The position numbers and the translations under genes were made by a program. A DNA stretch of 64,000 nt from the NCBI RefSeq assembly GCF_947492555.1, contig NZ_CANLNE010000001.1, positions 1,240,001 to 1,304,000 of the forward strand. The letters are read 5' to 3'. Origin of the DNA: an uncultured Roseobacter sp. Lineage in GTDB: Bacteria; Pseudomonadota; Alphaproteobacteria; Rhodobacterales; Rhodobacteraceae. Shown here piece after piece: positions 16,234-20,392 of the stretch. Position 1 is the first letter of the stretch. Every line of letters begins with the position of its first letter. The notes beneath the pieces are model-generated. The model did no database searches and had not been told where the DNA came from. It saw only the letters and a program-made list of their open reading frames with translations.

Positions 16234-17001
16234 TCACCTTGTGACAAAGCGACGCCGCAGCTCTGCGTTCTGGGACAGCATTATCGCCTCTTCGGCCAGT
16301 ATATGCTCCAGCATCACCTTGCGTGCATCTCCGGGGGATCCCTCACGCAATGCGATCAACAGGCGTTTGCGGCATGACCCTCCCTTGCGCCAGAGCGCTG
16401 CTGCGGCATGCTCCGCACCGCCTCGGCAGACTGTAAGCTCCGACAGAACGGTCGTCAGAAAACCAATCACGAAACCCAACAATTCATTCTGCGCGAAAGA
16501 GGCCAGCCGCACATGAAACTCAAGCGATCCGATGTGATATGCACGCTCATCTTCAGTAGTATGCGGCGGGTTGGGGAATCGCTCGGAAAGCTGTTCCAGC
16601 TCGGTCAATTGATCCTCGTTTAAACACCCCGAGAGAGAGGCCACCAATTCAGGTTCCAGCAAGCGGCGCAACTGATACACCTCTACAAGCTTTACATCCT
16701 TAAAATAGAAGTAGTTGCCCAGCAATGAGCGCGCCCGCTCCGCTGAAGGCTCCGCAACGAAACTACCGCCCCCCGGACCCGTGCGGGTCTCGACCAATCC
16801 CTGCGCCTCCAGGATGCGCATTGCCTCTCGAATGGTGCTCTTGGCCATCCCGAAGCTATTGATCATTTCGGACTCTGCTGGCAGGCGATCACCGCGCTTG
16901 AGATCCCGCGCCATGACCAGCTCTTTGATCGTGTCGGCAACACGCATTGGACGGCTGCGCCGCGAAGCGGGTTGCGGAGAGCGAGGTGGAGACGGAAGCA
17001 T
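16234..17001 (-). CDS. GntR-family regulator, FadR/FCD type
   Basis: This 255-residue repressor type has an amino-terminal winged helix (VADTIKELVMARDLKRGDRLPAESEM, then GMAKSTIREAMRILEAQGLVETR, residues 20-80) and a C-terminal FCD ligand domain (residues 105-245) with candidate metal-binding histidines, including HVRL near 160. FadR/FCD regulators respond to carboxylates and amino-acid derivatives. It lies 141 bases upstream of the saccharopine dehydrogenase-like gene on the same strand and most likely governs that module. A start at Met19 is also plausible. Confidence 0.88.
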   Translation of the reverse strand: MLPSPPRSPQPASRRSRPMRVADTIKELVMARDLKRGDRLPAESEMINSFGMAKSTIREAMRILEAQGLVETRTGPGGGSFVAEPSAERARSLLGNYFYFKDVKLVEVYQLRRLLEPELVASLSGCLNEDQLTELEQLSERFPNPPHTTEDERAYHIGSLEFHVRLASFAQNELLGFVIGFLTTVLSELTVCRGGAEHAAAALWRKGGSCRKRLLIALREGSPGDARKVMLEHILAEEAIMLSQNAELRRRFVTR

Positions 17002-17253
17002 TGTGGAAGCTTTCTGAAATCGGTCAGCACTGCATTTCTACAACGCAAAATGAGGAGATTGAACATAATCCAAAAAAATATTCGGCCTTCAAACGAAAAT
17101 ATTCAACCGGCGTCACAACACGGCAGTGCCTGCGACACAAAAGCTGACCAACGAGATTCAGGCCGACCGCAATCTAAACTAGAAAAATGTGCCGTTTTAG
17201 TGTGAAGTGGTCGGTATTTTACAAAGTCATTTAAATAGTGCCGGAGGATTATC

Positions 17254-19254
17254 ATGGCAACCGACAGTGCGCAGCAGCGCAAAACCCTATTGACAGCAAC
17301 CTGTTTCATCATTGGCGCGATCGTCGTCTATCACACGATGACGCATGCAACACAGTTCCCTGGTGAGGGCGCACGCCTTTTGTTGGTGCCCGTTTTTCTG
17401 GGATGCCTGTATGGCATTTATCGCATCTGGCGCGACGAACAGGAAGGCTGGTGGATTTTCACCGGGCTTAGTGTCTTTGCCGGTCTCTGGTCCGTATATG
17501 CCCTCGATCTCCCCTGGTCGCGTCAGCTGTGGTTCATTCTTGTCTTTCCCGCGATCTTCCGGGTTTTTTACGGCGGTATGAAGAAAAGCCGCCGTGTAGA
17601 GCTGACAAAACGGCGCATTCTTGGATGGCTCGGGAACAAGGCGATGGGATTGCTGAACGTGCAGTGGATCGTCGATCTGATCGCGAAAATCCCACCGCTT
17701 GACGCATTGATCAACCGCATTGTCATCAACCGCATCGTCAATCAGGTGCGCAACCGGCCGCATCCCTTCTCCACCAAGAGCGATTACACGTCCTGGTCCA
17801 GTCTTACAGATACGGAATGGAGCGCCCGCCATCTTGGCCCGTCCCCCATCGACCCTGAAAGCCTGCCGCCATGGGATGACATCCAACATCTGTTTGCGCG
17901 GACGGGGGACACGCAACGCCTCTGTCCTAAATCGACCTGCCTTTTCCCCTCCTTCGCGCAGTATCTGACGGACGGGTTTATCCGCACCACAACGGATGAA
18001 AAGGACCCCGACCGCCTGAAGCGGAACACGTCGAACCACAATATCGACCTTTGCCCGCTCTATGGACGAACAGCGGCACAGACGGCGGCCTTACGGGTCG
18101 CCTCCCCGGCGCCGGAGGATCGCGGCAAGTTGAAAAGCCAGATTCTGGATGGCGAAGAATTTGCACCCTTCCTCTTCGAGGGTAACGACATCAAGCAGGA
18201 GTTCGACATCCTCGACAAACCCCTGGGCCTGGACAACCTGAACGCGGCAATAAAATCAGGCACGCCGGAAGTGGCCGCACGGGTACGCGAGAAACGCGGC
18301 AGGCTGTTCGCCTTTGGCGGCGACCGGGCAAATTCGGTGCCACAAACGGCGATGATCAACACGGTGCTCTTGCGCGAACACAACCGGCTTGCATCTGAGC
18401 TTGGGCGGCGTAACCCCGACTGGGATGATGATCGCGTTTTCGAGACAGCACGCAACATCGTCGTCGTGCAATTCATCAAGATCGTGGTTGAGGACTACAT
18501 CAACCACATTGCGCCCACCGCCTTCCGGATCAAGGCGGACCCAAAGGCGGCCTGGGGCGCGAAATGGAACCGGCCCAATTGGATCACGACGGAATTCAGC
18601 CTGCTCTACCGCTGGCACGCGCTGATCCCGGATCAGATCACCTGGGGCGAGACCACGCATAAGGTCAGCCCGTCCTACTTCATGGAAAACAAGCCGCTGA
18701 TCGACATCGGGCTGGGGCGCGCCTTTGAAGACATGAGCGCACAATCTGCGGGCGAAGTTGGCCCCCGCAACACCACCAAGTCACTGATGCATGTGGAGGA
18801 AGCCTCTGTCGCACAGGGGCGATTCTGCCGCCTGCGCCCCTTCACGGACTATCTGGAGTACCTGCAGCGCCTGCCAATCACCGAGATGTCGCAGATCAGT
18901 TCGAACCGGGGCGTTGCGAAACTGCTCAAAGACACATACGGCGACGTGAACCGGGTCGATTTTTTTGTAGGCTTGTTTTGCGAAGACCGGGTCAAGAACG
19001 CCCCGCTGCCGCAGACAATCCTGTCCTTCGTGGCCCTGGACGCCTTTTCGCAGGCCCTGACAAATCCACTACTGTCGGAGCACGTCTTCACGCCCCCCGA
19101 AGACCCGGCACAGGAGCACCCGACCTTTTCCAAATATGGCTGGGAGCAGATTGCCGCCTGCGGGTCGATGCGTGACCTGGTACTGCGCAACATCCCCGCA
19201 CCGGAAAACCTCGGGTTTGTCGGCATGACCCAGACCGGGTGGGTCCGGGAGTAA
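17254..19254 (+). CDS. Membrane-anchored cyclooxygenase-type haem peroxidase/dioxygenase
   Basis: This 666-residue protein belongs to the animal-type haem peroxidase superfamily and is closest in style to prostaglandin G/H synthase and fatty-acid dioxygenases. Residues 1-110 hold about four hydrophobic helices. The catalytic part starts near 170. FSLLYRWHALIPD places the radical-forming Tyr at 452 and the proximal haem His at 455; TVLLREHNRLA is the usual helix around residue 372. In the distal helix (FAQYLTDGFIRT) Gln236 is kept, but the residue expected to be the distal His is Asp240. GGAGG precedes the ATG. The likely reaction is oxygenation of an unsaturated lipid; substrate and activity are inferred, and the missing distal His casts doubt on ordinary peroxidase turnover. 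Confidence 0.85.
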   Translation: MATDSAQQRKTLLTATCFIIGAIVVYHTMTHATQFPGEGARLLLVPVFLGCLYGIYRIWRDEQEGWWIFTGLSVFAGLWSVYALDLPWSRQLWFILVFPAIFRVFYGGMKKSRRVELTKRRILGWLGNKAMGLLNVQWIVDLIAKIPPLDALINRIVINRIVNQVRNRPHPFSTKSDYTSWSSLTDTEWSARHLGPSPIDPESLPPWDDIQHLFARTGDTQRLCPKSTCLFPSFAQYLTDGFIRTTTDEKDPDRLKRNTSNHNIDLCPLYGRTAAQTAALRVASPAPEDRGKLKSQILDGEEFAPFLFEGNDIKQEFDILDKPLGLDNLNAAIKSGTPEVAARVREKRGRLFAFGGDRANSVPQTAMINTVLLREHNRLASELGRRNPDWDDDRVFETARNIVVVQFIKIVVEDYINHIAPTAFRIKADPKAAWGAKWNRPNWITTEFSLLYRWHALIPDQITWGETTHKVSPSYFMENKPLIDIGLGRAFEDMSAQSAGEVGPRNTTKSLMHVEEASVAQGRFCRLRPFTDYLEYLQRLPITEMSQISSNRGVAKLLKDTYGDVNRVDFFVGLFCEDRVKNAPLPQTILSFVALDAFSQALTNPLLSEHVFTPPEDPAQEHPTFSKYGWEQIAACGSMRDLVLRNIPAPENLGFVGMTQTGWVRE

Positions 19255-19266
19255 CGCACGGGTTTA

Positions 19267-20016
19267 TCAGGGATCCGGCATCGCCGCAAAACGCTCCACA
19301 AGCCGGGCAACCGGATCCCCATACCCTTGGTAGTTTGCGCTCTGGCGCAGCTCTGCATAGCCTTTGAAGTACGTCCAAAAGGATGAAACTTCGAGATCGA
19401 AATAGGCGCGCAGCACCTCCGCGTTGCAAAGCTCCGACGCAATGCAGATTTCCATCTGCGCAAAGAATAGCATCAGCCGGTCGATATCGCGCTCAATCTG
19501 CCTGTCTTGTGGCGCGCTGCTGTCTCGTAAAGCAGCCGTCCACGCACGACCCAGGTTGGCTTGCGCATCGGGCAAAGCCTCTGGCGATAAAACCTGTAAC
19601 TGTGCCTTTAACGTGGGCTCTGTGACTTTACTCTCAACAAATTCCTGAACAGACGTATATCGCTGGACATTCGTTTCTGCTTGCCAATCCCGCACGATCT
19701 CAAGCGAGCGCTCGCGTCGGTTGTCTTCATTGGCGTTGGAATACTCGATAACCCCGAGGATGGCAGCGGCCGCTACGCCCAGACTGGCCGCGATGCGCAT
19801 CAACTGCTCTGCACGCGTCAGGAGGGTCGAACGCTCTGCGTTATCTTTGCCCGGTTCGATCGGACGGCGGGTCGGCGGTGCATGTCCCTCTTCATCGATG
19901 TCGCGGTCATTGGCGCCCTCAACATCGACATCAAGGTCGGGCGCAGGCTCCGCCAACACCTCGTTCATCATCTCGTGCGAGAGGGTCTTGCGGGACTTAC
20001 CGCGCTTCGCAGTCAC
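19267..20016 (-). CDS. Membrane-anchored protein of unknown function (DUF4760-like)
   Basis: This 249-residue protein has an acidic, proline-containing cytoplasmic lead (residues 1-70), one helix (AASLGVAAAAILGVIEYSNA, about 80-100), then an all-helical domain. Motifs such as RRERSLEIVRDWQ, LMLFFAQMEICIA and FKGYAELRQS resemble the DUF4760 pattern, though I cannot confirm membership. The GTG at 20016 is preceded by GAGG six bases upstream and overlaps the upstream gene by 20 bases; a longer frame to 20100 lies inside that gene. It faces the cyclooxygenase-like gene tail to tail with a 12-base gap. Confidence 0.68.
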   Translation of the reverse strand: MTAKRGKSRKTLSHEMMNEVLAEPAPDLDVDVEGANDRDIDEEGHAPPTRRPIEPGKDNAERSTLLTRAEQLMRIAASLGVAAAAILGVIEYSNANEDNRRERSLEIVRDWQAETNVQRYTSVQEFVESKVTEPTLKAQLQVLSPEALPDAQANLGRAWTAALRDSSAPQDRQIERDIDRLMLFFAQMEICIASELCNAEVLRAYFDLEVSSFWTYFKGYAELRQSANYQGYGDPVARLVERFAAMPDP

Positions 20017-20392
20017 GCCGGACCTCGAAGGTTTTGATCGGATCAGGCGACCAGGTCGCAGCTTGCAGCTCAGATGCGAGGCAGCGCAAACCGGCGGCAT
20101 CCATCAGAAAACTCAGATCGGGTTTCTTCTCACCGGGACTGACACCCGGCAGGGTCGACGTGCCGCGGGTAGCGGTTTCCGCACCATCGCAGGAAGCCAG
20201 GTTGATTAACTGGGCGGGCAGGTTCGCTTCCAGCATCTGGTTGATCTCCACATCGACGCGCTGCAGGTAGCATTCCGCCAGCTCCGATGTCAGTGTGACC
20301 TCCGCCGAACAGTAGTCACAGGCCAGCACGGGGGGCCCTAACCCGACCACAAGTGGCAAAACATATCGCATTTTGAGCATCTGAACCCCCAT
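19997..20392 (-). CDS. Exported cysteine-containing protein of unknown function
   Basis: This 131-residue protein has an apparent signal peptide (KMRYVLPLVVGLGPPVLAC, cleaved near residue 25 or lipidated at the Cys). The mature part holds several cysteines (CDYC, ECYL, SCDG, RCLA, DCEA) that could form disulfides in the periplasm. I do not recognise the family. AGGA lies upstream of the ATG at 20392. It is the first gene of a two-gene unit with the membrane-anchored protein that follows, with which it overlaps by 20 bases. Confidence 0.62.
   Translation of the reverse strand: MGVQMLKMRYVLPLVVGLGPPVLACDYCSAEVTLTSELAECYLQRVDVEINQMLEANLPAQLINLASCDGAETATRGTSTLPGVSPGEKKPDLSFLMDAAGLRCLASELQAATWSPDPIKTFEVRRDCEAR

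Follow-up and report, generated by a model that had tools for sequence, protein, structure and literature searches.

We analysed a 64,000-nucleotide stretch of DNA from an uncultured Roseobacter sp. (the window), in which a gene for a 666-residue protein (here the dioxygenase gene, after its likely function) lies between a divergent regulator gene and a gene for a 277-residue protein (Table 1). The protein matches the animal haem peroxidase family (PF03098, An_peroxidase; E 4e-37, 128.4 bits against a cut-off of 25), the sole Pfam family above cut-off, and this significant match places it in the peroxidase-cyclooxygenase superfamily; an NCBIfam scan of the protein gave no match. Its closest named relatives come from Roseobacter records L022, L023 and L027. 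Several Roseobacter relatives have a similar GGAG 5' of the dioxygenase start, and in 5 of the 13 genus loci read (L098, L022, L023, L099 and L100) the dioxygenase gene stands next to the GntR/FCD regulator cluster. The cluster of the 277-residue neighbour is found beside the dioxygenase gene in the window and in the two nearest Roseobacter genomes. The dioxygenase gene of R. cerasinus (L027) is split into two frames, and that of another Roseobacter, G014 (L014), has decayed to a 137-residue remnant that still reads TDGF.

Table 1. Features of the dioxygenase locus, with positions in the window
Feature	Position	Strand	Basis or remark
GntR/FCD regulator gene, divergent	16234..17001	-	Pfam run on window copy only
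A+T-rich intergenic region	17002..17253	.	42.5% G+C vs 60% in the window; separates dioxygenase gene and divergent regulator
GGAGGA, likely ribosome-binding site	17243..17248	+	Ends five bases 5' of ATG
Gene for COX-like, probable haem dioxygenase	17254..19254	+	666 aa, ATG start, stop included
Membrane domain at the N-terminus (aa 1-109) with about four predicted helices	17254..17580	+	AlphaFold2, hydropathy, alignment A5
COX-fold catalytic domain (predicted), aa 133-666	17650..19251	+	AlphaFold2, COX-2 fold match, profile
Distal-helix motif FPSFAQ236YLTD240GF242	17944..17979	+	COX alignment, relatives alignment
Arg358, aligned with COX-1 Val291 and with the myeloperoxidase-type peroxidase Arg	18325..18327	+	Alignments
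Tyr415, at COX-1 Tyr348 (central Tyr)	18496..18498	+	Relatives alignment
Tyr452-Arg-Trp-His455, putative radical Tyr and proximal haem His	18607..18618	+	COX alignment, relatives alignment
Terminal channel motif LSFVALDAFSQAL	19021..19059	+	Val593 at COX Gly526, Ala597 at aspirin Ser530
Gene for 277-aa protein, next to dioxygenase gene	19270-20100	-	DUF4760 match below threshold

The catalytic domain is predicted to adopt the cyclooxygenase (COX) fold. AlphaFold2, run on this domain with 28 sequences, gave a model with a pLDDT of 89.9 and a pTM of 0.91 (the full-length model, from 18 sequences, has a pLDDT of 77), which compares with COX-2 at TM scores of 0.83/0.80. Among the best 50 of 140 Foldseek matches, COX-1 and COX-2 chains take the top 35 places (24-25% identity, TM 0.82-0.84 by query, rmsd 2.4-3.0 A), followed by alpha-dioxygenase and animal-type peroxidases; the fold of dye-decolorizing peroxidases (DyP), which is unrelated to the COX fold, is absent from these 50. 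In sequence, too, COX-1 and COX-2 are the protein's closest relatives of solved structure (E 7e-48).

The sequence-only reading had described a cyclooxygenase-like protein with Asp in place of the distal haem His, and the alignments confirm this observation. In phmmer, the window segment FAQYLTDGFIRT aligns without gaps to COX-1 FAQHFTHQFFKT, so that Asp240 faces His207, and 7 of the 16 residues near Asp240 are identical to COX-1. Across the catalytic domain, a profile of 27 relatives and human COX-2 align with the register unchanged (E 6e-102); the gapless motif and this whole-domain register exclude a shift that would place another residue at the distal site. Gln236 (CAG, 17959-17961) and Asp240 (GAC, 17971-17973) correspond to COX-1 Gln203 and His207, and both lie in a single helix, residues 230-242, in the catalytic-domain model. 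The Tyr452-x-x-His455 motif noted in the sequence-only reading falls on Tyr385 and His388 (Tyr452, TAC, 18607-18609; His455, CAC, 18616-18618). Further equivalents are Arg358 for Val291, Tyr415 for Tyr348, Thr422 for Tyr355, Phe571 for Tyr504, Val593 for Gly526 and Ala597 for Ser530, the COX-1 numbers, other than those of Gln203, Tyr355 and the neighbours of Val291, being those used in a review (PMC13049297). For Arg120, the carboxylate binder of COX, the phmmer alignment to the window protein is ambiguous in that helix. Arg358 stands 16 residues before an REHN motif, and an aligned Arg is found at the same spacing in a classical bacterial peroxidase and in myeloperoxidase, where it is presumably the catalytic Arg239.

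No other His is seen at the distal site in the alignments. The four clade-invariant His residues (His262, 376, 418 and 455, in 44/44 aligned rows) all stand at positions other than the distal one, which argues against any of them as the distal residue. COX-1 also has His opposite residues 262, 376 and 455; opposite His418 it has Gln, where COX-2 has His. His193, kept in 41/44 rows, also lies away from the distal alignment position.

Asp at position 240 is present in all 43 distinct proteins of the clade, window protein included, as it is in smaller sets of 18, 27 and 28 sequences, and the distal His of Q-x-x-x-H, a usual but not universal mark of the superfamily, is absent from all 43. These are the distinct frames above 250 bits with differing last 400 residues among the loci fetched; together with a trimmed window row they make up the 44 aligned rows. 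Of the two pieces of the split R. cerasinus gene, they include the first, which lacks the C-terminal columns, but leave out the second (213.6 bits); also left out is the G014 remnant, which carries Asp as well. The lowest intact member scores 512 bits, the R. cerasinus pieces 418 and 214, and the next protein 128. Members include proteins of Roseobacter, other Rhodobacterales, Erythrobacter, another sphingomonad, Ramlibacter, Rhizobium, Sinorhizobium, Paracoccus, Methylobacterium, Ruegeria and the cyanobacterium Acaryochloris. Among weaker superfamily matches, Q-x-x-x-H, mostly in the form GQFxDHD, was read in 13/14 and 8/12 of two sets, the remainder being unread; a third set of weak matches shows Q-x-x-x-H in several proteins and a distal motif that is unreadable in many. 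No Asp at the distal position was seen among non-members with a readable motif. As far as the alignments reach, the distal Asp is a clade-wide family trait, and its presence in 43/43 proteins rules out a species-specific oddity. By alignment, neither of the outcomes that the sequence-only reading had named as refuting has appeared.

Other positions are conserved to differing degrees. The catalytic Tyr and Trp, the proximal His and the distal Gln and Asp are invariant in 44/44 rows, as is the central Tyr415. Arg358 is kept in 38/44 rows and replaced by His or Asn in 6/44, and the COX Tyr504 position (Phe571 in the window protein) is Tyr in 11/44, so that neither mark is universal in the clade. 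The replacements of Arg358 occur in the divergent members L062/L113, L147, L148, L094, L095 and L146; since Asp is constant there, the distal pocket varies while the Asp stays. At the Ser530 position Ala is found in 43/44 rows, and at the Gly526 position Val or Ile in 43/44, with one gap each; the Tyr355 position, Thr422 in the window protein, is Tyr in 5/44.

Genome scans covered samples of larger groups. In the near-relative scan 16/99 genomes match, counting weak matches and the window genome, and in the class scan 31/385 have an An_peroxidase match; three (G000, G242 and G269) of the 30 class-scan loci read belong to the Asp clade. The phylum scan gave matches in 18/398 genomes, four of them strong, and the order scan in 46/390, with 17 above 500 bits, where both scans scored at most three candidates per genome. 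One of 43 genomes in the order of G269 matches. Twenty-six plasmid records carry a match, and the 10 fetched comprise 8 members and 2 weak matches.

About four membrane helices at the N-terminus, as the sequence-only reading had proposed, are likely from the structure model and hydropathy. AlphaFold2 places helices at residues 2-33, 44-59, 63-82 and 88-103, with 10-residue mean pLDDT values of 79-91 beyond the first ten residues. On a Kyte-Doolittle scale with a 19-residue window, one N-terminal segment exceeds 1.6 and four regions within residues 1-109 exceed 1.2. In alignment A5 the window protein shares the domain with seven relatives (29-64% identity), among them Ramlibacter and genome G269. 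A profile of the domain matches 12/43 members at E 1e-11 or better, whereas the remaining 31 give E 0.5 or worse, or no match. The eight rows with the domain form one clade in the tree (support 94/93, just below the starred level), which suggests that it was gained once or is a single part that was retained. The hydrophobic N-terminal segments of L062 and L148 are of other kinds. An acyltransferase identity for the domain was rejected, as Acyl_transf_3 matches 2/8 members with a best score of 22.7 bits against a cut-off of 31; no PDB relative of the domain was found at E 1. In Ramlibacter (L025:3361-7950) two dioxygenase genes stand in tandem, of which a single one includes the membrane domain.

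Compared with COX-1 and COX-2, the window protein has the same fold and the equivalents of Tyr385-x-Trp387-His388, Tyr348 and Gln203, but differs at His207 (Asp), Val291 (Arg), Gly526 (Val), Ser530 (Ala) and Tyr355 (Thr). It also differs in its predicted polytopic membrane domain, COX being presumably a monotopic membrane protein.

A closer counterpart is the linoleate 10S-dioxygenase (10S-DOX) of Nostoc punctiforme. According to a 2026 review (PMC13049297), the residue at the place of the distal His207 is not the same in COX, 8R-DOX and 10S-DOX, the distal helix reading F205-thqF in COX-1 and F143-tdsF in Nostoc 10S-DOX, and DOXs carry Arg at COX Val291. The review gives the Nostoc enzyme 542 residues, Phe at Tyr504, Ala487 at Ser530, Ile483 at Gly526 and the motif DAFxQA, and states that it yields 10S-hydroperoxides of oleate and linoleate, the linoleate product being convertible by a catalase-related lyase from a separate gene. 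By this account, the Nostoc enzyme (UniProt B2J5P4) and the window protein share the distal Asp, the catalytic Tyr, the proximal His, T-D at COX T206-H207, Arg at Val291, Phe at Tyr504 (window Phe571), the Y-I-x-x-I-x-P central motif, the DAFxQA terminal motif and Ala at Ser530. They differ in that the window protein has 666 residues and about four predicted N-terminal membrane helices, in that Phe143 and Ile483 of the Nostoc enzyme are Leu238 and Val593 in the window protein, and in that the window gene has no adjacent catalase-related gene. The kinship is judged from the motifs printed in the review and from an Acaryochloris relative, which falls on the family side of the tree (support 82/77) and shows 39% identity to the window protein across 72% of its length. 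Since the Nostoc enzyme has Asp and forms 10S-hydroperoxides, a distal Asp is compatible with dioxygenase activity; with tdsF in a characterised enzyme it is already on record, and the novelty that the sequence-only reading had implied for it falls away.

The fungal 8R- and 10R-DOX of linoleate diol synthases and the mushroom 10S-DOX are also COX-fold dioxygenases, but the fungal 8R-DOX and mushroom enzymes have a distal His in contrast to the Asp of the window protein. The hydroperoxides of fungal DOXs can pass to a fused P450, again by the review (PMC13049297); as a counterpart in separate genes, three Rhizobiaceae relatives here have an adjoining P450 gene. DyP has the same pairing of distal Asp and Arg, a resemblance that would be convergent. 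In one DyP the distal Asp takes the proton from H2O2, and Compound I forms about a thousandfold more slowly in the D143A and R232A variants. Papers drawn on beside the review were PMC9579011, PMC11719350 and PMC6153280. Searches for a bacterial COX relative with a distal Asp led to the review and otherwise to papers on DyP, globins, alpha-dioxygenase and other subjects. Among open-licence papers, we found none on the Roseobacter family, its membrane-anchored form or partner swapping.

Taken together, we consider it probable that the gene encodes a haem fatty-acid dioxygenase, a bacterial COX relative resembling Nostoc 10S-DOX and anchored in the membrane by the extra four-helix N-terminal domain. 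In the proposed cycle, His455 would hold the haem iron, and a hydroperoxide would oxidise the haem to a ferryl species with Asp240 serving as acid-base in the role of COX His207, assisted in this step by Gln236 and the usually kept Arg358. The simplest reading of the residues is that these form the peroxide-activating group. Tyr452 would then work as in COX: as a radical it would abstract hydrogen at an allylic position of an unsaturated acyl chain, and addition of one O2, in an 18-carbon chain most likely close to C10, would leave a hydroperoxide of the fatty acid; prostaglandin endoperoxides would not be the expected product. Since the C18 acids of roseobacters are mainly monounsaturated, a likelier substrate than arachidonate would be vaccenate or oleate, either as the free acid or within a lipid.

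Neighbour genes in relatives bear on this proposal. A hydroperoxide-type partner gene lies within 5-6 kb of the dioxygenase gene in 13/41 loci, as expected of hydroperoxide-using partners. By kind, 10 loci have catalase-related genes (weak matches in L025 and L173), 5 have genes for di-haem cytochrome c peroxidase and 3 have P450 genes, where one locus may carry two kinds. The catalase-related profile was built from L091, L093-L095 and L109, the di-haem profile from L091, L025 and L109, and the P450 profile from L088-L090, so that matches at those loci arise by construction; independent matches are those of L169, L170 and L171, weak ones of L173 and of pieces in L025, and the set in G479, which is on another contig than its dioxygenase gene (L174). 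In L091, L169 and L170, all outside the window's genus, the order is di-haem peroxidase, catalase-related protein, dioxygenase, and L109 and L025 also have this set, which looks like a lipid-peroxide pathway. Pfam names PF00199 in L093, L169 and L174 and gives no family for the catalase-related proteins of L091, L094, L109, L171, L173 and L025. The record annotation of the L091 and L093 neighbours is 'catalase family protein', and NCBIfam assigns the di-haem proteins to CytoC_perox, some below cut-off. On Rhizobium and Sinorhizobium plasmids (L088:4745-7662, L089 and L090), a P450 gene with HHECLG (3/3) is directly 5' of the dioxygenase gene; the two frames overlap in two of these loci, by about 50 bases in Sinorhizobium.

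Within the window's genus, no hydroperoxide-type partner was found near the dioxygenase gene in any of the 13 loci, the window's included. The catalase-related profile finds nothing in the window genome but matches 6/23 genomes; in the genus these are G011 and G013, both with the match away from the dioxygenase gene. Six P450 matches in five frames of the window genome are likewise away from it. The 13 genus loci lacking a partner and the window genome lacking a catalase-related match count against a reading modelled on Nostoc 10S-DOX, as do Leu238 and Val593 in place of Phe143 and Ile483 and the variation at Arg358 and at the Tyr504 position within the clade; the rows without the Arg also weigh against the proposed mechanism. 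A catalase-related partner is a feature of the Nostoc case rather than of this kind of enzyme.

The role of the Asp can be read otherwise. The sequence-only reading had suggested an oxygenase independent of classical peroxide activation. On that view Asp240 would be no acid-base catalyst, the peroxidase step would be crippled and Tyr452 would be oxidised by other means. The review (PMC13049297) lends this some room, as the H203Q exchange in a fungal 8R-DOX merely lowered catalysis, making the distal His partly dispensable, and as by its account DOX peroxidase activity is little documented. We nevertheless think it unlikely: Gln236 is invariant, Arg358 is mostly kept (38/44 rows), an Asp found in 43/43 proteins is presumably kept for something, and the distal Asp of DyP is a competent base. 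Of the earlier interpretation, then, the protein type, the Asp and its conservation, the membrane part and, as likely from the sequence, the lipid oxygenase are retained, and peroxide independence and novelty are not.

Two other functions would change the product. If the protein were no dioxygenase but a peroxidase of the membrane, which would oxidise small donors or detoxify lipid hydroperoxides, this would fit the Arg retained as in classical peroxidases and the other peroxide-handling haem proteins next to some relatives. This function is made quite unlikely by the invariance (44/44 rows) of the central Tyr415 and of two residues of the COX dioxygenase centre, Tyr452 and Trp454, a site at which A(F/Y)RFGH is found in several classical bacterial peroxidases, and by the dioxygenase activity that the review reports for the Nostoc homologue (PMC13049297). 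That the protein is a true bacterial cyclooxygenase forming prostaglandin-like endoperoxides appears highly improbable, despite COX-1 and COX-2 chains being its 35 top fold matches, at 24-25% identity, and despite the invariant equivalents of Tyr385 and His388. Asp240, Ala597, Val593 and Thr422 stand at His207, Ser530, Gly526 and Tyr355, and the loss of Ser530, Gly526 and Tyr355 argues against prostaglandin synthesis. Bulk at COX position 526 would hinder ring closure.

COX is the enzyme blocked by aspirin. The peroxidase activity of its dioxygenase relatives, on which the role of the distal residue bears, is little documented according to the review (PMC13049297). The Asp-bearing bacterial enzymes, with and without the membrane domain, offer a natural test of whether a distal His is needed to form the Tyr radical. 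The newer parts of the present picture are the clade-wide Asp, the four-helix membrane domain of one subclade and the exchangeable neighbour genes in relatives. Swapping among P450, catalase-related and di-haem peroxidase neighbours points to oxylipin pathways in bacteria that could be tested, some of them encoded on plasmids of root-nodule species. A wider and doubtful extension of the fatty-acid dioxygenase reading would be an 'Asp-type' COX branch, in which a distal Asp, mostly with the Arg known from classical peroxidases, would activate peroxide in convergence with DyP; the enzyme of the Roseobacter clade, as an integral membrane protein, would oxygenate acyl chains of membrane lipids in place, and elsewhere the product would feed interchangeable partners (P450, catalase-related protein or di-haem peroxidase). 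Separately, in the window's family, a class I peroxidase gene adjoins a short dioxygenase gene at L111:7690-9957 (identified by Pfam) and at L112:3666-5852 (by cluster).
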